From the NCBI RefSeq assembly GCF_900176595.1, contig NZ_LT838813.1:2622001-2686000 (forward strand): 64,000 nucleotides of DNA, read 5' to 3'. This document shows, piece after piece, positions 42,531 to 53,898 of this stretch. Position 1 is the stretch's first letter, and the number at the start of each line of letters is the position of its first letter. The position numbers were made by a program, and so were the translations under genes. Below the pieces are notes generated by a model that saw only the letters and a program-made list of their open reading frames with translations, had not been told where the DNA came from and ran no database searches. This DNA is from Aquiflexum balticum DSM 16537. Lineage in GTDB: Bacteria; Bacteroidota; Bacteroidia; Cytophagales; Cyclobacteriaceae.

Positions 42531-43769
42531 TTACAAAGTTAAATTTTTAGCCTGACAGATATAATGTTTTTTCACTATTTTACTCATGGCTTTGATGTTT
42601 GGCAAATCTGCAGCCTGAGCTACATCTATTATTTCCCCCTTTTTGGTAAGGATTAGAATTTGCTCTTTGTTGAGGTAAGCGTGATTGCTTATGGTTCCAT
42701 GAGTGAAGAAATAATGGTGGTCCTTTTCTTGTATTTTAAGTTTTTTTAGACTTTTTAATCTTTCACTGTTCAATTCCTGATCTGTAAAGGCCTCGTTCCT
42801 CAAATTAATTTTAAACAGGTTTCTTGTAAGAAACATATTGGAGATATTCCTGATCACATAATCTTTCTCATTTTTCCACATTTTGATCGCTCCCCAAATA
42901 TCCAAGTCATCAAGTTCCATGAAATTTTGAAGTAAACCTTTATCATTTTGGAGATCCGTTAAGGAGAATTTATTGCTGAGAAAAAGCAATAATTCCTCTG
43001 TTCCGAAAAGTTGGTTTCCGCTTGTGATTAAATCCTTTGCCCTAGTTACAAGATTTATCATCATTTTTTCAGCACTGACTGTTGTTTTGTGCAGGTATAC
43101 CTGCCAATACATCAATCTCCTGGCACTGAGAAAATTTTCGATGCTGTACAGACCTTTTTCTTCGACTACCAACTGATCATCTTTGATATACATCATTTTA
43201 ATGATCCTGTCTGCACCAATAGTTCCTTCTGATACCCCTGTAAAAAAACAGTCACGCTGAAGATAATCCAACCTGTCAATATCTAATTGACTGGAAACCA
43301 ATTGATTGAAAAAATTCCTTTCGTATGCTCCTTTGAAAATTTTTATAGCTAAATTGAGAGAGCCGTTCAGCTCTTTATTTAATGTTTCAATTACCAATAG
43401 AGACAATGATTCATGGGGGGTGTTGTCAAGTAGACTGAATTCAAGGGCATGGGAAAAAGGACCGTGTCCTATATCATGCAGCAAAATGGCAACTAATGCC
43501 GCCTCATATTCCTCATCACTGATATCAATTCCTCTATGGCGAAGGTTGTCTAAAGTAATGCGCATCAGGTGCATAGCTCCGATGGCATGATGAAATCGGG
43601 TATGAAGTGCTCCTGGGTAAACAAAATCCGTCAAACCCAACTGTTTGATTCGACGTAACCTTTGGAAATAAGGATGGTCAATAATGGTAAAAATCAAATC
43701 ACTCGGAATGGTGATAAACCCGTAAACAGGATCATTAAATATTTTATGGCTTTTCAATGTCCTTGACAT
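42531..43769 (-). CDS. HD-domain phosphohydrolase (SAMHD1/dGTPase-like)
   Basis: 412-residue HD-superfamily protein. Metal motif: H in LHTRFHHAIGAMHLM, HD in ILLHDIGHGPFSHALE, Asp in SSQLDIDRLDYLQRDC. The start SHKIFNDPVYGFITIP is typical of bacterial SAMHD1-like triphosphohydrolases that cut dNTPs or related nucleotides; dGTPase is less likely. The C-terminal domain (about 230-412) is unassigned. Located just upstream of lpxD (16 bp gap), so part of the same transcript is possible; it is divergent from porX, the starts being about 50 bp apart. Confidence 0.9.
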   Translation of the reverse strand: MSRTLKSHKIFNDPVYGFITIPSDLIFTIIDHPYFQRLRRIKQLGLTDFVYPGALHTRFHHAIGAMHLMRITLDNLRHRGIDISDEEYEAALVAILLHDIGHGPFSHALEFSLLDNTPHESLSLLVIETLNKELNGSLNLAIKIFKGAYERNFFNQLVSSQLDIDRLDYLQRDCFFTGVSEGTIGADRIIKMMYIKDDQLVVEEKGLYSIENFLSARRLMYWQVYLHKTTVSAEKMMINLVTRAKDLITSGNQLFGTEELLLFLSNKFSLTDLQNDKGLLQNFMELDDLDIWGAIKMWKNEKDYVIRNISNMFLTRNLFKINLRNEAFTDQELNSERLKSLKKLKIQEKDHHYFFTHGTISNHAYLNKEQILILTKKGEIIDVAQAADLPNIKAMSKIVKKHYICQAKNLTL

Positions 43770-43819
43770 TTTATAGGTTCAAAAGTAATTATAAATTTAA
43801 AAGAATTAAACCAAATTTT

Positions 43820-45379
43820 ATGCAAAGGTTCAAAATCCTATGGGCAGATGATGAGATTGATCTTCTGAAACCCCATATATTGTTTTTAAATCAGAGAGGT
43901 TATGAAGTTTCAACAGTGAACAGTGGGGTCGATGCCATCGAATTAGTGGAAAAGCACAACTATGATGTGATTTTTCTTGACGAGATGATGCCCGGGATGA
44001 CAGGCCTCGAAACCCTTCAGCAGATTAAAATGATAAAGCCGCAGATACCTGTTGTTATGATAACCAAGAGTGAGGAAGAACATTTAATGGATGATGCCAT
44101 TGGAGGTAAAATTGCCGATTACCTTATAAAGCCGATCAATCCCAATCAAATATTACTTTCTGTAAAAAAGATCCTTCAAAACAAACAATTGATTACGGAG
44201 AAAACCAATCTTTCTTACAGACAGGATTTTATGAATATCAGTATGGCCTGCGATGAGGCTTCCACCTATCAGGAGTGGACTGAAATCTATAAGAGATTGA
44301 CCTATTGGGAACTCGAAATAGAGAAAACTGAAAACAAGAGTATGCAAGATGTTTTGGATACTCAGAAGACAGAGGCCAATGCTTCTTTTGCCAAATTCAT
44401 AAAAAATAATTATATAGATTGGATCAGTGATCCAAAAATTGAAAAACCGATTTTGTCACATAAGCTGATGAATGAAAAGGTTTTTCCTTTTCTTGAGCCC
44501 AATAGGCCGCTTTTTTTTATTGTAATTGATAACCTCCGGTTGGATCAATGGGAAGTGATCAAACCATTGGTGATTGATTATTTTAATGTGGTGGATGAAA
44601 GTACTTATTACAGTATTCTACCGACAACAACGGCATTTTCAAGGAATGCACTTTTCAGTGGAATGATGCCTTCTGATATGGCAAGATTTCATCCGGATCT
44701 GTGGGAAGGAGAAGATACTGATGAAGGGAAAAATAACCATGAGGAAGAGTTTCTTGCAGAAAACCTCCATAGGAACCGTCTCAATATCAAATTCAGTTAT
44801 CACAAAATTTTGCAGGCCTATCAGGGGAAAACAATTCTTGAAAATTTCCACCAAATGCTCAACAATGACTTGAATGTTTTGGTGTATAATTTTGTGGACA
44901 TGATGTCCCATGCAAGGACTGATATGAAAATGATCAGGGAATTGGCACCTGACGAATCAGCCTACAGATCTATCACCAAAAGTTGGTTTGAGCATTCATC
45001 CCTTTTCGAATTATTTAAAAGAATCCAAAGTATCAAAGCAAATGTAGTGGTCACCACAGATCATGGGACTAAAAGAGTAAACAAGCCATATAAAATTATC
45101 GGCGATAAAAATATCACAACCAATCTGAGGTATAAACAAGGTAAAAATTTAAATTTTGAAAGCGGAAAGGTTTTTGAGATTTCAAAACCTGAAGACGCCA
45201 AACTACCAAGGTTTAATGTTTCTACAAGTTATGTATTTACAGTAGAAGATTATTTCTTTGCATATCCCAACAATTACAATTATTATGTAAATTATTACAA
45301 AGATACTTTTCAGCATGGCGGAGTATCTTTAGAAGAAATGATTGTCCCCGTCATTCAACTTGAACCCAAGAATATTTAA
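43820..45379 (+). CDS. porX: PorX-type response regulator with PglZ phosphatase domain
   Basis: Regulator of type IX secretion and gliding. From ATG 43820 (preferred to the 43757 start), residues 1-120 are a receiver with acidic pocket D10/D11 and phosphoacceptor D54 (in FLDEMMPGM). A helical linker leads to a PglZ/alkaline-phosphatase-like domain with metal groups FIVIDNLRLDQW (D), PTTTAFSRNALFSG (Thr nucleophile), VVTTDHGTK (Asp, His) and a last His in FQHGGVSLEE. PorX is a zinc phosphodiesterase working with PorY kinase and sigma SigP in Porphyromonas. 519 residues, close to known PorX. tsaE and ald follow directly. Confidence 0.93.
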   Translation: MQRFKILWADDEIDLLKPHILFLNQRGYEVSTVNSGVDAIELVEKHNYDVIFLDEMMPGMTGLETLQQIKMIKPQIPVVMITKSEEEHLMDDAIGGKIADYLIKPINPNQILLSVKKILQNKQLITEKTNLSYRQDFMNISMACDEASTYQEWTEIYKRLTYWELEIEKTENKSMQDVLDTQKTEANASFAKFIKNNYIDWISDPKIEKPILSHKLMNEKVFPFLEPNRPLFFIVIDNLRLDQWEVIKPLVIDYFNVVDESTYYSILPTTTAFSRNALFSGMMPSDMARFHPDLWEGEDTDEGKNNHEEEFLAENLHRNRLNIKFSYHKILQAYQGKTILENFHQMLNNDLNVLVYNFVDMMSHARTDMKMIRELAPDESAYRSITKSWFEHSSLFELFKRIQSIKANVVVTTDHGTKRVNKPYKIIGDKNITTNLRYKQGKNLNFESGKVFEISKPEDAKLPRFNVSTSYVFTVEDYFFAYPNNYNYYVNYYKDTFQHGGVSLEEMIVPVIQLEPKNI

Positions 45380-45821: not shown

Positions 45822-47024
45822 ATGGTTGAGATTACAGAAGGGGTGGGGATTTACCCTAAGGAATCCATGGTCAAGATAAAAAAATCCAAGAATTCTTTGT
45901 TGATTGGTTTGCCGGTTGAATCTGCTGCACAGGAAAAAAGGGTAGTGCTGACTCCTGATGCCATTGCCTTATTGGTCAATAATGGACAAGAAGTGATCGT
46001 AGAAGCCAATGCTGGTAAAGAATCAAAATTTACAGACCAGGAATATTCTGATGCCGGAGCCAAAGTAGTTTATTCCGCGAAAGAAGCCTTTGATGCAGAG
46101 GTGGTGATTAAAGTAGAACCGCCTACCGAGGAAGAAATTAATTTGATGAGGCCCGGGGCTTGTCTGATTTCAGCATTGCAACTCGGCAAACAAAATGCTG
46201 CCTTCATTCATGCACTCAATAAAAAAAGAATAACCGCAGTTTCTTATGAGCATCTCGAGGATAAAGTGGGTGGAATGCCTGTAGTCAGAGCTATGAGTGA
46301 AATAGCTGGAAGTACAGTCATGCTTATTGCTGCCGAATACCTCAGCAGTGTCAATAACGGAAAAGGTTTGATTATGGGAGGAGTCACAGGTGTACCGCCA
46401 ACTGAAGTGGTCATAATCGGTGCCGGAACAGTTGCTGAATATGCCGCGCGAACGGCACTGGGCCTAGGTGCAAGTATTAAAGTTTTTGATAATCACATTT
46501 ATAAACTCCGAAGAATAAAGCAACTTCTGGGACAACAGGTTTTCACTTCTACCATAGATAATTATACATTAAGCAAAGCTTTAAAAGAAGCTGATGTCGT
46601 GATTGGCGCATTAAGGGCAGAAAAGGGAAGAAACAAAATCGTTGTCAGTGAGGAAATGGTAGCCGCCATGATGGCAGGGAGTGTCATTATAGATGTAGGG
46701 ATTGACCAAGGGGGATGTATGGAGACTTCGGAAATGACCTCACATGATGAACCAACTTTTGTCAAACATGGTGTAATTCATTATTGTGTTCCAAACATAG
46801 CATCCCGTGTATCAAGAACAGCTTCCTTTGCTCTGAGTAATATTTTCACACCGATTTTGCTTCAGATGGCCGACTTAGGTGGCGCTGAAGAAATGGTTTT
46901 TAATTATAAATGGTTTATGAAGGGGGTATATACCTATCGGGGAAGTCTTACGAATGCCTATATAGCAAGGAAATTCGGGATGACCCACAAAGAACTATTG
47001 CTCTTGCTGGCCGCAAGGTATTAA
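45822..47024 (+). CDS. ald: Alanine dehydrogenase
   Basis: NAD-dependent reversible deamination of alanine to pyruvate. The N-terminal catalytic domain has the RVVLTPD stretch with catalytic Lys/His (KVEPP, QLGKQNAAF), and the NAD domain has VVIIGAGTVAEYAARTALGLG. C-terminal VPNIASRVSRTASFALSN is conserved. The first 18 residues (MVEITEGVGIYPKESMVK) are a Bacteroidota-type extension. 400 residues, 7 bp after tsaE, so porX-tsaE-ald form one unit. Its 3' end overlaps the receiver gene on the other strand by 4 bp. Confidence 0.93.
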   Translation: MVEITEGVGIYPKESMVKIKKSKNSLLIGLPVESAAQEKRVVLTPDAIALLVNNGQEVIVEANAGKESKFTDQEYSDAGAKVVYSAKEAFDAEVVIKVEPPTEEEINLMRPGACLISALQLGKQNAAFIHALNKKRITAVSYEHLEDKVGGMPVVRAMSEIAGSTVMLIAAEYLSSVNNGKGLIMGGVTGVPPTEVVIIGAGTVAEYAARTALGLGASIKVFDNHIYKLRRIKQLLGQQVFTSTIDNYTLSKALKEADVVIGALRAEKGRNKIVVSEEMVAAMMAGSVIIDVGIDQGGCMETSEMTSHDEPTFVKHGVIHYCVPNIASRVSRTASFALSNIFTPILLQMADLGGAEEMVFNYKWFMKGVYTYRGSLTNAYIARKFGMTHKELLLLLAARY

Positions 47025-47494
47025 GACAGAAGATTCTGTCTTAATACAAATTCAAGCTGACCATTTACCTCCATCAGTTCTGAAGTGAGTTGCCTGTTTT
47101 CCCTGCGAAGCATATATACTTCATAAGCATTGTGAATGACAGTCCTCATATAATCTTCCTCCCAAGGCTTGGTCAAATAATGGTAAACCTGACCCTTATT
47201 GATGGCGTCAATTACTGCTTGAATATCAGTATAACCTGTCAGTAAAATCCTGATCGGATCAGGGTTTATAGGGATAATAGATGCTAAGAAATCTACCCCT
47301 GTTTCCTCGGGCATTCTTTGGTCAGTTATTATTAAATGTACGTCTTCAGTCTTCAAAATCTCTCTTCCCTCACTCGCTGAAAGGGCCAAGAAAATCTGGA
47401 AATCTCTTCTGAAAGTTGCTTTAAATGCTTGAAGATTGTTCTCTTCATCATCAACATACAATATTTTTATTTTTTCTTCAGGGGAATAAAGCAT
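47021..47494 (-). CDS. Single-domain response regulator
   Basis: 157-residue receiver domain with acidic pair D15/D16, phosphoacceptor D58 (IITDQRMP), switch Thr (LLTGYTD) and Lys in LTKPWEE, plus a 35-residue helical tail (YMLRRENRQLTSELMEVNG) that could be a coiled coil. It lacks an output domain. Its receiver is clearly paralogous to the one in the kinase at 52798 (shared DEENN/DEGNNL, INPDPIRILLTGY, VIDAIN). Divergent from the Rv1355c-family gene, with 166 bp between starts. Confidence 0.92.
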   Translation of the reverse strand: MLYSPEEKIKILYVDDEENNLQAFKATFRRDFQIFLALSASEGREILKTEDVHLIITDQRMPEETGVDFLASIIPINPDPIRILLTGYTDIQAVIDAINKGQVYHYLTKPWEEDYMRTVIHNAYEVYMLRRENRQLTSELMEVNGQLEFVLRQNLLS

Positions 47495-47660
47495 TGGTAT
47501 AAATTATTAGGGGTGAATTCGAAATACATTTATTTGGAGGGTAATTGAATTAATCTGCCGACAAAGTATCAAAAAAAAGTATTTATAAAAAATATCGGAT
47601 TGGAAATATTTAAAGAAATTATTTTGACAAGATTTTTTTTTAAAGATTTCACTATGAATC

Positions 47661-49985
47661 TTGCGCCAAAAAATTATCTTTACTCCTGATAATCACCCTA
47701 ATTACCTCTATATGAATGCTCTTTCAACTCTTGATCTTATCAATCAATGGGGAATAATTTTGATGAATCCCCAAAAAAAATCAGATGCAGAACTCCTTAA
47801 AAAACTGTTCGAATTGCCTCACCTTCTTAAGGTAGATCAGATCGAAAGTCAGGTAGCCGATTTGATAAAATTAAACAATCCAACCAAGTCATTCAGTAAA
47901 GAAGAATTGCTGATGAAGGTGGTTGAATTTTTTGAAATGAATGAAAAACACAGCTATGGACATTGGGTTTTTTATCCTTGGAAAAACACATTGGTTCACG
48001 TCCTTCCTGAAAGGGAATTTATCCAGGTTAGAACGGTTCGTAATCAATACAAAATCACTCCAAGTGAGCAAGAAAAACTTTCTACAAAAAAAATAGGAAT
48101 AGTAGGATTGTCAGTAGGTCAAAGTGTAGCAATGGCCTTAGCATTGGAGAGGGGCTGCGGTGAATTGAGATTGGCTGATTTTGATACGTTGGAGTTGAGC
48201 AATATGAACAGAATCAGGTGCAGCCTTACCGAGTTAGGTTTAAAGAAATCAACCATTGCTGCAAGGGAAATTTTGGAAATAGACCCTTATCTAAAAGTCA
48301 CTGTATATGAAGAGGGAATTAATGAAGGAAATATAGTTGATTTTTTTACCAAGGGCGGAGAACTTGATCTGTTGGTTGATGAATGTGACAGCTTGGACAT
48401 AAAAGTTTTGTTAAGGGAAGTTGCCAAAAAGTACAGAATCCCTGTTATCATGGATACTTCAGATAGGGGGATGTTGGATATAGAAAGGTTTGATCTTGAG
48501 CCTGAAAGGCCTGTTTTTCATGGGTTTTTAGGAGATATTGATTATAAAGACCTCAAAGATCTCAATATTAAAGAGAAAGTGACTTATGGGTTAAAAATAA
48601 CTGGTCTTGAGACACTTTCTCCCAGAATGAAAGCTTCCTTATTGGAAATAAATCAAACCATATCCTCGTGGCCGCAATTGGCCTCAGCTGTTTTTTTGGG
48701 AGGCGCACTAGGGGCACATTCTGCGAGAAATATTCTCTTGGATCATATGACAGAATCCGGAAGGTTTTTTATTGATCTGGATGAATTGGTTCAGGTTCAT
48801 CCTGGAAGCGAAAACTTAAAATTTAAAGTAAATGAAGAAGATCTGAATTTTTCAGTTCAAAAAGAATTTGAACTGAAGAGCAGTCTTTCTTCAAATTATA
48901 AATTGACAGAAGATGAGCTTATTAAGATTGTCAAAGCGGCAAACACAGCGCCTTCCGGTGGAAATTGCCAACCTTGGAGTTGGGTGTTTGATGAAAAAGG
49001 AGTTCTTCACCTTTACCATGACAAAAAACGAAGTGAATCATTACTGGATTTTAAAGGCACAGGATCGTTAATGTCATTCGGTTCAGCTTTGGAGAATATA
49101 CGGTTGACTTGTGCCCAAATGGGTATTGAAACAGAAATGATTACTGAGATTGTTGATTTTGAAGAAGAAAAAATTGCCTCAATTATTTTTAAAAATAAAC
49201 AAAAACAAAGTATCAATGTCCCATTTGCATATTTGACTCCCTACATAGAGAGGAGATTAACGGATAGGCAGAATCAAAAGAGGCAAATTATTGATAGAGA
49301 GATATTCAAGGAACTGGTTGCCATAGCTGAGGAAAGCGGATTAAATCTTCATGTTTTTGACCAGGAAGACCAAATTGGAAAACTTGCAAAGATAAACGGT
49401 GTCATGGATTGGGTCCGAATGATCAATGAGGAAGGATACCGGGATTTTGTCAAAGAAATCAGATGGAATTCATCCGAAGCTGAAATGTCTAAAGACGGCA
49501 TGGATCTTTCCACATTTGATCTAAGTGTTGCAGATAAAGCAATATTGAAAATGATCAACAATCCAAAAGCAATGAAGTTTGTCAGAGAACATCATTTGGG
49601 AAGAGGATTTACTCAAATTTCAGACAAAACATTCCAAGCGGCTTCTGCCATTTGTCTTTTGTCAGCCAAGGATTTTTCACCTGATACATATCTCAAAGCA
49701 GGTAGGGCACTTCAGCGCATCTGGACGCACGCTAATATGAAGAAAATAAGTTTTCAACCTGTTACAGCCCCTCTCTTTCTTTATCAGCAATACATCAAAG
49801 GGGATAAAAAACGATTCAGTGCTTTTGAATCAAATCTAATCAAAAATAGCCTTAGAGAATTCCGGGAATTTGTCCAGCATAAAGATGGAGAGGTCGAAAT
49901 ATTTCTCTTTAGGTTGAATATTACCGAGGGTGATGTGGTCAGATCATTGAGAAGAGATGTAGTCGATACATTAAAAATAGTTTAA
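47661..49985 (+). CDS. Rv1355c-family protein: ThiF/E1-like domain plus nitroreductase domain
   Basis: 774-residue two-part protein. After about 130 N-terminal residues, an E1/ThiF-type adenylating Rossmann domain (STKKIGIVGLSVGQSVAMAL near 140, DFDTLELSNMNRI, then LDLLVDECDSLDIKVLL) runs to about 350. From about 415 a flavin nitroreductase-like domain begins (ANTAPSGGNCQPWSWVF near 427) and ends with arginine-rich sequence. The combination equals mycobacterial Rv1355c proteins, whose role is unknown. It is predicted to activate a carboxylate with ATP and reduce a product, as in small-molecule or peptide modification. The start is TTG 47661 or ATG 47712. Confidence 0.85.
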   Translation: MRQKIIFTPDNHPNYLYMNALSTLDLINQWGIILMNPQKKSDAELLKKLFELPHLLKVDQIESQVADLIKLNNPTKSFSKEELLMKVVEFFEMNEKHSYGHWVFYPWKNTLVHVLPEREFIQVRTVRNQYKITPSEQEKLSTKKIGIVGLSVGQSVAMALALERGCGELRLADFDTLELSNMNRIRCSLTELGLKKSTIAAREILEIDPYLKVTVYEEGINEGNIVDFFTKGGELDLLVDECDSLDIKVLLREVAKKYRIPVIMDTSDRGMLDIERFDLEPERPVFHGFLGDIDYKDLKDLNIKEKVTYGLKITGLETLSPRMKASLLEINQTISSWPQLASAVFLGGALGAHSARNILLDHMTESGRFFIDLDELVQVHPGSENLKFKVNEEDLNFSVQKEFELKSSLSSNYKLTEDELIKIVKAANTAPSGGNCQPWSWVFDEKGVLHLYHDKKRSESLLDFKGTGSLMSFGSALENIRLTCAQMGIETEMITEIVDFEEEKIASIIFKNKQKQSINVPFAYLTPYIERRLTDRQNQKRQIIDREIFKELVAIAEESGLNLHVFDQEDQIGKLAKINGVMDWVRMINEEGYRDFVKEIRWNSSEAEMSKDGMDLSTFDLSVADKAILKMINNPKAMKFVREHHLGRGFTQISDKTFQAASAICLLSAKDFSPDTYLKAGRALQRIWTHANMKKISFQPVTAPLFLYQQYIKGDKKRFSAFESNLIKNSLREFREFVQHKDGEVEIFLFRLNITEGDVVRSLRRDVVDTLKIV

Positions 49986-49989
49986 AATT

Positions 49990-50706
49990 ATGTTTATTTT
50001 CAAAGCATTCAGAGCAATTGACGACCTTGAATCCAGTATGAAATATGCTGAAGGCCACGCTAATGTATTGAGGGAATATGGTATTACAAAAGTTACGTCT
50101 TCCAACAATGAATGGATGCATAATCCCTATGTATATGTTGTAACTGTTGAGGATAGTCTCACAGGTATGATCGTAAGCGGGGTTAGGATTCATATAGCAA
50201 ACAGAGATTATCCATTACCCTTGGAAGAGGCTTTAGCAAAAACTGACCGAAGGGTTTACGATTTGGTGGATATTTATAGAGAAAATGGAACAGGTGAAGT
50301 CTCGGGATTATGGAATTCCAAGTCTATATCTGGATATGGAATCGGATCTTTGTTTTTATCCAGAACAGCGGTGGCAATAGCTTCTCAACTTAAACTGGGG
50401 TCATTATTGGCACTTTGTTCAAAACACACTTTGCAAACTACTTTAGATAAGGGTTTTCAGGTAGAGGAAAGCATTGGAAACAAGGGTAAGTTTTTTTACC
50501 CTACAAAGGACCTCATATCAACTTGTGCGGTTTTGAGAGATGTTCAAAATATTCCCTTGGCCTTGCCTGAGGAAAAGAAATTCATTTTTCATTTGAGAAA
50601 GAATATAAAGAGTGTTATGTTAGAAGATTCTCCAAAAGGAAAAATAGAAATTAGGTATCAGCTCTTCATTGAAAACCCCAATTGGCGGTTAGATTTATGC
50701 TTGTAA
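49990..50706 (+). CDS. GNAT-like acyltransferase candidate
   Basis: 238 residues. The part from about 50 to 165 shows a GNAT-like course: strand-turn VYVVTVEDSLTGMIVSGVRIH, an acidic region VYDLVDIYRENGTGEVSGLW, then a GxGxGSLFLSRTAVAIAS helix that resembles a CoA-binding loop, and LCSKHTLQTTLDKGFQVEES. Similar order occurs in autoinducer synthases and N-acyltransferases. It is 4 bp after the Rv1355c-family gene and overlaps the kinase gene by 10 bp, so the three are translationally linked. Substrate unknown; classification is tentative. Confidence 0.6.
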   Translation: MFIFKAFRAIDDLESSMKYAEGHANVLREYGITKVTSSNNEWMHNPYVYVVTVEDSLTGMIVSGVRIHIANRDYPLPLEEALAKTDRRVYDLVDIYRENGTGEVSGLWNSKSISGYGIGSLFLSRTAVAIASQLKLGSLLALCSKHTLQTTLDKGFQVEESIGNKGKFFYPTKDLISTCAVLRDVQNIPLALPEEKKFIFHLRKNIKSVMLEDSPKGKIEIRYQLFIENPNWRLDLCL

Positions 50707-52808
50707 TATTTTTGAGTTTAATATTAAGTTTTCAAAACTTCTTCAATGTGATTCAAGATCGCCAATCCGGTATGGAATTGGAGTATGAATATTTAATTGA
50801 AAAAAATGAAGCCTTTGATATTGAAAAAATCATAAAATCTCAGGATTTCAAAAGAGTGGAATCATCCACTAAAAATTTTGGAATAAACAATGATATTGTC
50901 TGGCTCAAATATGATGTGATCAATAAGTCAGGAGAGAAAACAAGATATTTTTCAATAAACAACTCTTCTCTTGATAAACTTGATATTTATTTGGTGCAAA
51001 ATGAGCAAATAGTTGATTATCAAGGCGGAGGGAGATTTCTAGGTATTCAGGATAGGTTGATTCCGTCCAAGAATCTTGTTTTCGAAATTCAGTTGGAGCA
51101 GGATGAGCTTTACACGATCTACATGAGGATTGAAAGTGTAAACAAGAAAGTGATCTTAGCGACCATTTCTGATCTTCAGTCTGTCCATTTTCAAATTCAG
51201 AAGGAAAATCTTTTTTTTGGAATTTTCACAGGAGTGCTTTTTGGGTTGCTTTTCTATAATTTGTTCCTGTATTTTTCAATCAAGGATAAGCTCTATTTAA
51301 TTTACGTGATTCATACGCTGTTTGCTTGGTTGGCACAAGCAGCGATTCTAGGATATACACAGGAATTGATCTGGCCTGATAACGAATGGATCAACCTCAG
51401 ATCAGGGGTTGTTTTTTCTTCTCTGGTCAGTATAGCGGGAATTTGGTTTCTCCGTATTTTTTTGTTTACAAAAATTTATCTGCCCAAGCTTGATAAGGGT
51501 TTTTATTTTATCTATGCTGTTTACGGTTTCATTCTTGTCAACGCCTTGTTTATTTCATTGACCTTGAGTTATCAGGTACTTTTAGTCACACAGTCTGTAG
51601 TTGTTTTATACGTTCTTTTTGTTGCCATTTTTGTATGGACCAAAGGCTACAGTCCTGCCAGGTATTATTTATTGGCATGGTCATTTTTCATGCTATCGAT
51701 TTTATGGTTTGTCTTAAGTGAGATGGGGGTATTGTCTTACACAGTACTTACGGCCTTTATTATGCCGCTTGGGTCAACTTTGGAAGTTATTTTACTTTCT
51801 TTTGCTCTTGCAGATAAGATAAATGTTCTTATCAATGAGAAAGAAAAAGAACAGGCAGACAAACTCTATATTCTGAAAGAAAACGAGAGATTGATTATCA
51901 AGCAAAATGAAAACCTTGAAGAGAAGGTAAAAAAGAGGACGGAAGAATTGGAATACACGCTGCATAATCTACAAAATACCCAAACCCAAATGGTCAATCA
52001 GGAAAAGATGGCTTCCTTAGGTCAGTTGACGGCAGGTATAGCACACGAAATCAATAACCCGATAAATTTTGTTAGCTCCAATATATCACCTTTAAAAAGG
52101 GATATCAATGATATTTTGGAAATAGTAGAGGCATATAGAGAAAAGGGTGAGGTTGAATTTTCGGATGAATCAAAAAAAGAACTTAAAGAAATAGAAAAGG
52201 AAGTAGAATTTGATTTTGTAATTGAAGAAATCAATCAGTTACTGAACGGAATGGAGGAAGGAGCGCGCCGTACAGTTGAAATTGTCAAAGGTCTAAGGTT
52301 GTTTTCAAGGGTGGACGAACAGGATGTTAAAAAAGTTGATGTCCATGATGGGCTGGACAGTACTTTGATCTTGCTGAGCAGTTCAATGAACGGAAAGATC
52401 AAGATTAATAAGGAATATGGAAGCATACCCTTGGTTGAATGTCTGCCGGGGAAAATAAATCAGGTTTTTATGAATATCATTACAAATGCTATTCATGCGC
52501 TCCTGGATAACTTGAACAATGTATCAGCTCCTGAAATAACCCTTAGAACAAGAAAATCAGATACAAATGTTGTAATCGAAATAGAGGATAATGGACCTGG
52601 AATGCCAGAGAAAGTCAAGCAAAGGATCTTTGAACCTTTCTTCACGACCAAGTCCGTGGGTAAAGGTACAGGCCTAGGTCTTTCAATAGTTTACACCATA
52701 ATCGAAAATCATAAAGGTACATTGGAGGTACGTTCAAAGGAAGGTAAAGGAACAAACTTCATCATCACACTCCCGATTTATCAAACTGCGCCTTTAAATG
52801 ACCGATAA
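50697..52808 (+). CDS. 7TMR-DISM sensor histidine kinase
   Basis: 703-residue membrane kinase. Signal-like start ([12 protein letters not shown]), extracytoplasmic 7TMR-DISMED2-type beta domain (about 20-165), seven membrane helices (about 175-385), a coiled coil ([10 protein letters not shown] to EELEYTL), then HisKA with H450 ([16 protein letters not shown]) and HATPase ([32 protein letters not shown]). The start ATG 50697 is chosen over TTG 50682. A sensor for a ligand or carbohydrate-like signal is inferred from the DISM domain. It overlaps the GNAT-like gene and the next gene (11 bp), so all form one operon. Confidence 0.93.
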
Positions 52809-53898
52809 GATTATAGTATTGTACATAGATGATGAGGGTAATAATCTTACCTCATTCAAAGCTAGCCTGAGGAAGGATTTTCAGGTGGTGACTGCCATAG
52901 ATGCCAATGAAGGACTTGCCATTGCATCTTCCCAAGAGTTGCATGTAGTCATTGCTGACCAGAGAATGCCAGGCCTGTCTGGAGTAGAATTTTTTGAAAA
53001 GCTTATGAAAATCAATCCCGATCCAATCAGAATCCTGCTTACCGGGTATTCAGATATTGCTAGTGTGATTGATGCCATCAACAGGGGCGAAGTATATAGG
53101 TTTATCGACAAACCCTGGAATATTGATCATGTCAAAAATGCAATTATCAATGCCGCTGAAATTTATTTCACTCGAAAGGAATTAAAAGATAAAAACGAAA
53201 GGCTTTTGAAAATTCATTCTGAAATGAATCAGTTTGTCTATTCTTTATCCCATGAACTCCGTGGGCCCTTAATGAGTATTGCGGGCGTTTCCAAACTTGC
53301 TAAAATGGAATCTGACGATCCGGCAATTCATGATTATTTTGATATGGTCGATTCTGCGACCGAAAAGCTGGATGAATATGTTTACAAAATGCTCGATTTT
53401 TACAGGTCCACCAAGATGGAAAACAAAGTCATCAAAATTGACTTCAGGGATATTGTTTTTGAGCAGATGGAATTTTATAAACAAAAATGGGATCTTGATA
53501 AAATTGATTTTGAAATCAACATTAATCAGGAGATTCCCTTTTTTTCAGACGATTCCAAGATCAAAGTGATTTTCAACAGTTTAATCAGTAACGCCTATAA
53601 CTTTCAAATCCCGGAAAATCCAAACAAATATATTCGTTTACTAATTGACGTTAAAGAGTTTTACACCACTATTTTGGTAGAGGATAACGGAGTAGGGATA
53701 GCTCAGGAAAATTTGGAAGGGATTTTTAATTTATTTCAAAGGGCAACCCAAAATAATGTTGGTTCTGGACTTGGCATGTACATGGTAAAGGAATCTGTTA
53801 CCCAAATTGGAGGGGATATAAATATTGATTCAGCTGTTAATCAGGGTACCAAAGTGACAATTAAAATACCTACCCTTCAATTGAATGAAATGGTTTAA
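52798..53898 (+). CDS. Response regulator-histidine kinase hybrid (receiver first)
   Basis: 366 residues: an N-terminal receiver with D54 (VVIADQRMP) and a Thr/Lys pair (LLTGYSD, IDKPWN), then HisKA with H152 (YSLSHELRGPLMSI) and HATPase (IFNSLISNAYNF, VEDNGVGIAQ, GSGLGMYMVKES). There is no membrane segment, so it is a soluble kinase that may take phosphoryl from the membrane kinase and pass it on. The receiver is a paralogue of that at 47021. A weak hairpin with a T-rich stretch (53933-53975) follows it. Confidence 0.92.
   Translation: MTDKIIVLYIDDEGNNLTSFKASLRKDFQVVTAIDANEGLAIASSQELHVVIADQRMPGLSGVEFFEKLMKINPDPIRILLTGYSDIASVIDAINRGEVYRFIDKPWNIDHVKNAIINAAEIYFTRKELKDKNERLLKIHSEMNQFVYSLSHELRGPLMSIAGVSKLAKMESDDPAIHDYFDMVDSATEKLDEYVYKMLDFYRSTKMENKVIKIDFRDIVFEQMEFYKQKWDLDKIDFEININQEIPFFSDDSKIKVIFNSLISNAYNFQIPENPNKYIRLLIDVKEFYTTILVEDNGVGIAQENLEGIFNLFQRATQNNVGSGLGMYMVKESVTQIGGDINIDSAVNQGTKVTIKIPTLQLNEMV

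Follow-up and report, generated by a model that had tools for sequence, protein, structure and literature searches.

Three described systems pair an N-acyl amino acid synthase with a ThiF cyclase and a flavin oxidase: TrzAS (Rv1356c-Rv1355c) of mycobacteria and Rhodococcus, OxzAB of Pseudoalteromonas rubra, and TyzACB. In the first of these the acyltransferase TrzA makes N-acyl-tryptophan, and TrzS converts this to an oxazolone. TrzS combines a ThiF cyclase and a flavin oxidase in a single protein, the ThiF half cyclising with ATP and the oxidase half desaturating with O2; TrzA and TrzS together yield N-acyl tryptazolones (PMC12856293). What oxazolones do for the cell is, according to the same authors, a major unresolved question (PMC12856293). 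Here we describe a locus of Aquiflexum balticum DSM 16537 in which enzymes of this kind are encoded together with a 7TMR-DISM histidine kinase and two receiver proteins. It lies in a stretch of 64,000 nucleotides (contig NZ_LT838813.1, positions 2,622,001 to 2,686,000 of the forward strand), which we refer to as the window. In contrast to TrzAS, the 7TM kinase and the two receivers belong to the unit here, and many alleles lack the oxidase half.

A second point of comparison is provided by signalling systems that exist in mutually distinct specificity types, or pherotypes. In the agr system of staphylococci, the signal-making gene and the sensor part of the receptor are polymorphic while the catalytic part of the kinase is conserved. 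The comQXPA system of Bacillus subtilis is built likewise, with a region described as 'highly polymorphic' and a 'conserved 3' region of comP' (PMC12935306). We find the same arrangement at the Aquiflexum locus, where the candidate signal-making gene and the sensor part are co-polymorphic and the catalytic part of the kinase is conserved. New here is the joint allele change of acyltransferase and kinase sensor half, at one chromosomal site in 29 genomes; by analogy with comQXP, this co-exchange carries the signature of a synthase-receptor specificity cassette. The likeness to comQXPA and agr does not extend to the molecules involved, in that the signal would be something other than a ribosomal peptide and the receptor is a 7TMR-DISM kinase. 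The genes and segments in question are the following (window coordinates; aa, amino acids).

47021 to 47494, minus strand: lone receiver (REC), 157 aa, PF00072 at E 2.6e-17, divergently oriented with respect to the cassette; D58 is the phospho-acceptor by reading
47712 to 49985, plus strand: TrzS-like fusion, 757 aa, with a ThiF/E1 cyclase as N-terminal half and a nitroreductase-type flavin-dependent oxidase as C-terminal half
49990 to 50706, plus strand: N-acyl amino acid synthase-like acyltransferase, 238 aa, putatively TrzA-like, with a predicted fold of the N-acyl-homoserine lactone (AHL) synthase/FeeM type
50697 to 51776, plus strand: 7TMR-DISM histidine kinase, sensor half (DISMED2 + 7TM, residues 1 to ~360), PF07696 and PF07695
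51777 to 52808, plus strand: 7TMR-DISM histidine kinase, catalytic half (HisKA + HATPase_c), conserved, PF00512 and PF02518
52798 to 53898, plus strand: soluble REC-HisKA-HATPase hybrid kinase, 366 aa, PF00072, PF00512 and PF02518, phospho-acceptor D54 by reading
49990 to 51776, plus strand: allele-exchange block, comprising the acyltransferase and the kinase sensor half, which are replaced jointly between classes A and B

To compare alleles we drew on the best 80 of 490 confirmed loci (hereafter the named loci), which are titled as Algoriphagus and relatives, Pedobacter and relatives, Chitinophaga and relatives, and Flavobacteriales. Sixty-five of them carry a full-length acyltransferase and sensor on the same strand, making 66 with the window, and 29 of the 66 constitute the co-exchange set. 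These 29 loci represent a single chromosomal site: the upstream gene is 72-89% identical to that of the window in all other 28, and at the downstream gene 24 of the 28 show 81-95% identity, L159 has a different gene, and three loci (L118, L122, L173) are outside the measurement. Clustering on sensor and acyltransferase identity yields three classes, A (10 loci), B (9) and C (10). Between A and B, mean identity falls in the acyltransferase (0.67 within A, 0.82 within B, 0.44 between the two) and in the sensor half (0.59, 0.59 and 0.29, in the same order), a drop that follows partly from how the classes were defined. Independent of that definition, both segments drop in the same pairs of loci whereas the cyclase (0.59, 0.62 and 0.59), the kinase catalytic half (0.78, 0.86 and 0.81), the receivers (lone receiver 0.83, 0.88 and 0.85) and the flanks do not. 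The sensor halves of A and B are as far apart as either is from its counterparts in other lineages (A versus rest 0.28), while the catalytic half of the very same kinase is 0.81 identical between A and B, compared with 0.50 for the rest. Class C, which has no oxidase half, differs in the cyclase as well (A versus C 0.49, against 0.59 within A and 0.57 within C).

Along the locus, a sliding-window drop in identity covers the acyltransferase and kinase residues 1-360, beginning at the acyltransferase start and ending near kinase residue 360, and is absent from the cyclase-oxidase, the catalytic half and the hybrid; in kinase windows from residue 401 on, A-B identity is 0.65-0.92 and never under A-A. 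Across the 29 loci, pairwise distances correlate at 0.94 between acyltransferase and sensor half, as against 0.32 between the two halves of the kinase, sensor and catalytic, and the acyltransferase-sensor partial correlation of 0.93 was reached in none of 2000 permutations. On a quick tree of the conserved parts, in which 9 of 26 inner branches are poorly supported and L114 and L142 are long, the A/B label requires 5 changes and the A/B/C label 9, with the well-supported branches forcing at least 4 changes of label B. Exchange is also visible between sister species: the DNA of L095 (Algoriphagus limi) matches that of L096 at an identity of 0.71-0.87 over the locus, falling to 0.41-0.58 in the acyltransferase and sensor half. 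In the pair L106/L120 the exchanged block extends to the cyclase as well.

What might the enzymes of the cassette make? The TrzS-like fusion belongs to the Rv1355c family (NF005901, 741.9 bits against a cut-off of 476). A reading made beforehand from the DNA letters only, which we call the sequence-only reading, had described Rv1355c proteins as being of unknown function, a statement now outdated given that Rv1355c is TrzS (PMC12856293). The equivalents of TrzS R540 and Q651 are kept in the window protein (the pair was located through its spacing of 111 in L176, from Mycolicibacterium sp. TY66), and the aspartate of the ThiF ECD motif is invariant and likely equivalent to TrzS D217, although the exact numbering is uncertain. 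Judged by its sequence, then, the fusion would make an N-acyl oxazolone. An oxidase half is present in 63 of the 80 named loci. The words 'kinase', 'sensor' and 'receptor' do not occur in the main text of PMC12856293, nor does 'kinase' in PMC10404671, and neither paper shows a kinase partner.

The acyltransferase matches no Pfam family at E up to 0.1 and no NCBIfam family, and a search of PDB sequences, with the protein singly and as a profile, returned nothing significant. Its predicted model (predicted local distance difference test score, pLDDT, 94.3) is more informative. A structural comparison with autoinducer synthases, proposed in the sequence-only reading, places the AHL synthases BjaI and RpaI and the N-acyl amino acid synthase FeeM at the top of the Foldseek matches, and structural alignment gives Z 16.9 over 172 residues for FeeM and Z 16.3 over 196 for BjaI. 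The protein thus has a GNAT fold like that of FeeM and the AHL synthases, with generic GNATs tying by Z over a shorter length. Fold is all it shares with LuxI-type and FeeM-type enzymes: membership of the LuxI family is ruled out by the empty Pfam search, identity is about 8-15%, and the cyclase here is a separate protein. The comparison with TrzA was made with three proteins in TrzA position beside TrzS in plasmid records of Nocardia and Rhodococcus, rather than with characterised TrzA itself. In hhalign they align with the acyltransferase at a probability of 84% (E 7.4e-6, 173 columns), and among 1882 open reading frames (ORFs) they rank right after the true members in hmmsearch (E 1.3e-4 to 2.9e-3; next ORF, E 0.66). 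Within the acyltransferase alignment of 56, W42, R66 and E103 are invariant. Together, profile comparison and model indicate that the 238-residue protein is a distant relative of the TrzA-position proteins and has an AHL-synthase/FeeM fold. The acyltransferase profile finds no significant match in the candidate acyltransferases beside cyclases outside Bacteroidota (L154, L167, L171) or in the alternative GNAT beside the second cyclase copies of L092 and L093 (see below).

The putative receptor has all parts of a 7TMR-DISM histidine kinase by Pfam and model, namely DISMED2, 7TM, HisKA and HATPase_c. The sensor model (pLDDT 92.1) finds its best structural match in the RetS periplasmic domain (Z 16.3), and the extracellular domain also resembles carbohydrate-binding and glycosidase domains. 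Sensors of the RetS/LadS type have the same DISMED2 + 7TM sensor; to our knowledge, none has a cassette of potential ligand-making enzymes encoded alongside. A likeness to Wntless, a lipid-carrying 7TM protein (Foldseek E 7e-5, template modelling score ~0.3), was absent from the 50 matches listed by a second aligner and was not used; among the matches listed by that aligner, those to 7TM proteins are GPR156, TMEM87A, the adiponectin receptor, rhodopsins, S1PR1 and other receptors.

Two further loci bear on sensor pairing in ways of their own. In L072 (11825-20000), at least four tandem DISM genes, the last truncated by the end of the stretch, follow the acyltransferase, as if the receptor gene had been duplicated. 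In L171 (8860-13989, contig label Patescibacteria), the protein immediately after a TrzS-type one is another sort of 7TM kinase (HisKA_7TM), which may represent an independent sensor pairing; the 366-aa protein upstream has no match to the acyltransferase profile.

The two receivers, which the sequence-only reading had taken for sisters, are indeed that: they are 53% identical over 122 aa, and the nearest match of the lone receiver in the genome is the receiver of the hybrid at 159.5 bits, the next scoring 50.3 bits (19 matches including itself). A short receiver gene on the opposite strand is nearby in 66 of the 80 named loci, and a REC-kinase in 61.

These components could form a self-contained cassette for cell-to-cell (or self-) signalling. 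In such a cassette, the 238-residue acyltransferase would acylate an amino acid with a fatty acyl group, after which the ThiF half would adenylate the carboxylate and close the ring to an oxazolone, and the flavin oxidase half would desaturate it, with alleles lacking the oxidase half stopping at the saturated ring. The oxazolone, or an N-acyl (dehydro)amino acid arising from its opening, would exit the cell and serve as ligand of the neighbouring 7TMR-DISM kinase, which would in turn phosphorylate both sister receivers, the lone one and that of the REC-kinase hybrid. The dialect would be set by the acyltransferase and read by the sensor half, which is why both would be exchanged together. That the enzymes make a small molecule sensed by the 7TM kinase had already been proposed in the sequence-only reading, and the core of this idea is supported by the oxazolone-pathway enzymes and by the joint allele switching of acyltransferase and sensor half at a fixed site. 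Given both the resemblance of the co-exchange pattern to pherotype systems and the TrzAS enzymology, the most likely reading and, on balance, a probable one, is in our view that the 7TMR-DISM kinase detects an N-acyl-amino-acid or oxazolone signal and relays it to the two sister receivers. The TrzAS authors themselves note the likeness of oxazolones to AHLs and the presence of cyclic di-GMP genes beside trzAS (PMC12856293); near TrzS, GGDEF genes are annotated in three Rhodococcus records and can, by reading, also be found in a Nocardia record. We lean only slightly towards a wider version, in which quorum sensing throughout Bacteroidota would use N-acyl-amino-acid/oxazolone lipids made by a LuxI/FeeM-fold enzyme and read by a 7TM kinase, with dialects arising through repeated exchange of synthase and sensor half. 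Among the papers listed by our literature search, mainly open-access ones and without bioRxiv, none describes oxazolone or N-acyl amino acid signalling paired with two-component systems or 7TMR-DISM.

If lipid signalling of this kind exists, a class of bacterial lipids would gain a purpose, as a private chemical language whose enzyme and sensor half are swapped between related species. There would be a quorum-sensing-like system on the AHL-synthase fold in Bacteroidota, whose natural allele classes could act as ready controls for specificity, and 7TMR-DISM receptors would acquire a class of candidate ligands. Since the cassette is widespread and places oxazolone genes beside a membrane receptor that co-varies with the acyltransferase, it makes the role of oxazolones directly testable in ordinary laboratory Bacteroidota.

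A number of observations weigh against a lipid signal read by the kinase. The case is built from sequences and models. The relationship to the TrzA-position proteins is weak (13.6-17.9 bits in hmmsearch), the TrzS neighbours tested in Mycolicibacterium sp. TY66 have no match to the acyltransferase profile, and generic GNATs rival FeeM by Z (1xeb 16.6, ElaA 16.3), yet over ~146 residues. In mycobacteria and Rhodococcus, tryptazolones are mostly cell-associated, with acyl-tryptophan in the supernatant (PMC12856293). Pfam detects no DNA-binding output among the five genes of the window. As for the co-exchange, class labels are more clustered on the tree than when shuffled (9 versus a mean of 13.9 changes), so that part of the A/B divergence reflects plain descent. 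The partial correlation amounts to just 0.25 for the 37 loci of other lineages, though above all 2000 permutations; in the eight loci, a small set, where the cyclase stands between acyltransferase and sensor, it is 0.09, with 663 of 2000 permutations as high. Finally, acyltransferase and sensor adjoin wherever co-exchange is seen, and linkage could account for part of it.

How do other explanations fare? One is that the two-component system senses another cue, such as envelope or nutrient state, and controls the amount or use of a lipid that is a membrane or stress metabolite rather than a ligand. The sensor's RetS-like extracellular fold, with its resemblance to carbohydrate-binding and glycosidase domains, would suit such a cue, and the physiological role of oxazolones is open, with links to stress under discussion (PMC12856293). 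A sensor of another cue should not, however, switch alleles jointly with the acyltransferase while the rest of the kinase stays constant, and control of lipid levels finds no DNA-binding regulator among the five genes. We consider this account unlikely.

Alternatively, the co-exchange might merely reflect recombination of one contiguous, linked stretch of DNA, without any coupling of ligand and receptor. The two segments are contiguous in all co-exchange loci, and the eight loci with separated genes, the one set able to tell coupling from linkage, give a low correlation that decides neither way. Against this, the block stops at the sensor/kinase junction within one gene and spares the adjacent cyclase gene in A-B exchanges, and linkage alone sits uneasily with the 5 changes that the A/B label needs on the conserved-part tree. 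We hold this explanation to be distinctly unlikely.

Very unlikely, in our judgement, is a product that acts as an antibiotic-like compound, with the kinase as a sensing or immunity module reporting the compound of self or of rivals. Allele exchange would equally fit the matching of toxin and sensor, and PMC12856293 describes the N-acyl tyrosines of Stieleria as antimicrobial, but a Pfam scan confined to the window's five genes finds no transporter or resistance gene among them.

Whether the genes belong together at all can be judged from their linkage across genomes. We used an order sample of 148 genomes and a phylum sample of 296, with neighbourhood genes called by a simple longest-ORF caller and profiles built here. 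In the order sample the cyclase occurs in 25 genomes (27 places) and the acyltransferase in 32. Among the 26 cyclase places with wide neighbourhoods, an acyltransferase lies within two genes in 23 (exceptions L091, L092, L093) and a 7TMR-DISM gene within three in 22 (exceptions L083, L086, where the contig ends inside the acyltransferase, L092 and L093); the 27th place (G110) is a 4.4-kilobase (kb) contig holding cyclase and acyltransferase. The phylum sample has the cyclase in 11 of 296 genomes, one of them as a fragment at a contig end. In 75 of the 80 named loci the acyltransferase is at most two genes from the cyclase (once as a fusion, L115), and a DISM gene is nearby in 71; of the nine without one, three are at contig ends (L108, L127, L168) and three are titled outside Bacteroidota (L154, L167, L171). 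The order acyltransferase-cyclase-kinase is found in eight loci, all outside the Cyclobacteriaceae set. To gauge chance, we chose 20 genomes from the 32 with an acyltransferase, which hold 1-16 DISM genes each and 129 in total: a DISM gene would be expected in an 8-kb window around the acyltransferase in 0.19 genomes and was observed in 19 of 20 (the miss being G104), a contrast for which we claim no p-value because the genomes are related to one another. The gene block is real, and its order is conserved far beyond chance. We accordingly give next to no credence to a chance neighbourhood of unrelated genes, for which cyclase genes without this kinase outside Bacteroidota might speak but which the linkage counts (22/26 places, 71/80 loci, 19/20 versus 0.19 expected) contradict.

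The sequence-only reading had made its case depend on the enzymes not occurring widely without the kinase. This holds within Bacteroidota, where cyclase and acyltransferase are mostly found with it, exceptions including L083, L115, L135 and L146. It fails outside Bacteroidota, where the cyclase lacks this kinase in 8/13 plasmid records (the eight examined among 13 with a cyclase, their gene tables being incomplete) and in L154 and L167; in the L178 plasmid record, genes for a sensor kinase and a regulator are located ~5 kb past the cyclase. The coupling of enzymes and kinase is therefore lineage-specific.

Some cyclases keep other company. L092 (8467-10437) and L093 (8679-10631) are second cyclase copies without the oxidase half, and their genomes contain the full cassette besides; each adjoins a different GNAT-like protein (276 and 261 aa, respectively), with no DISM gene, and might serve a second product. 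L115 (6409-8304), from a Saprospiraceae metagenome-assembled genome, is a cyclase-acyltransferase fusion of 632 aa with no DISM gene nearby. On Streptomyces plasmids, an oxidase-free ThiF cyclase overlaps a different GNAT protein (L178, 6830-8628) or a beta-ketoacyl-ACP synthase gene (L183, 3122-6036), maybe as part of other acyl-amino-acid pathways. In the incomplete genome G082, the cassette L079 (8151-10224) has disrupted acyltransferase and cyclase frames.

Conversely, the acyltransferase and DISM gene can occur with another enzyme. Seven loci of the order sample have a flavin adenine dinucleotide (FAD) oxidase in the place of the cyclase near acyltransferase and DISM gene; PF01565 was found in all four proteins tested, and the other three are 60-77% identical mutually and to a tested one. 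By sequence (one protein tested) this oxidase is related to 4-cresol dehydrogenase and vanillyl-alcohol oxidase (VAO), both of which act on para-hydroxyphenyl substrates, so that a VAO-type oxidase would suit an N-acyl tyrosine. The DISM protein is of a larger type in six of the seven, and a SpoIIE domain replaces the kinase at its end in both proteins tested with Pfam (the 'SpoIIE' label of our own gene caller is unreliable, probably through coiled-coil carry-over). With FAD oxidase replacing cyclase and SpoIIE replacing kinase, acyltransferase and DISM sensor are the constant pair, and modifying enzyme and output vary. Three relatives of the acyltransferase do not fit, having no cyclase, FAD oxidase or DISM gene alongside: L088 (at a contig end), L089 and L090. 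L089 (8317-9036), which adjoins an FtsX-type permease, and L090 (5680-6378) are divergent paralogues in genomes with a cassette elsewhere, and L088 (8592-10439) is a 616-aa protein in genome G107, whose two acyltransferase matches both fall in this single open frame.

Gene coordinates together with Pfam and NCBIfam bear out the five genes and their domains as first described, and the plus-strand spacing is exact, with a 4-base-pair (bp) gap followed by overlaps of 10 and 11 bp. The receiver upstream is divergent as proposed, but the spacer of 166 bp needs revision: homologues of the TrzS-like fusion align from the in-frame ATG at 47712 and not from TTG 47661, a longer alternative start, which makes a spacer of 217 bp and a protein of 757 aa more likely. 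The cassette is flanked by alanine-dehydrogenase-like and inorganic-pyrophosphatase-like genes (best NCBIfam matches, both under the curated cut-offs). Farther upstream lie genes for TsaE and PorX (NCBIfam, both over cut-off). PorX, the type IX secretion response regulator (43757-45379, 831 bits against a cut-off of 300), is encoded ~1.6 kb upstream of the lone receiver gene, and a REC-bearing gene of similar length is kept in that place in most loci of the Cyclobacteriaceae type.

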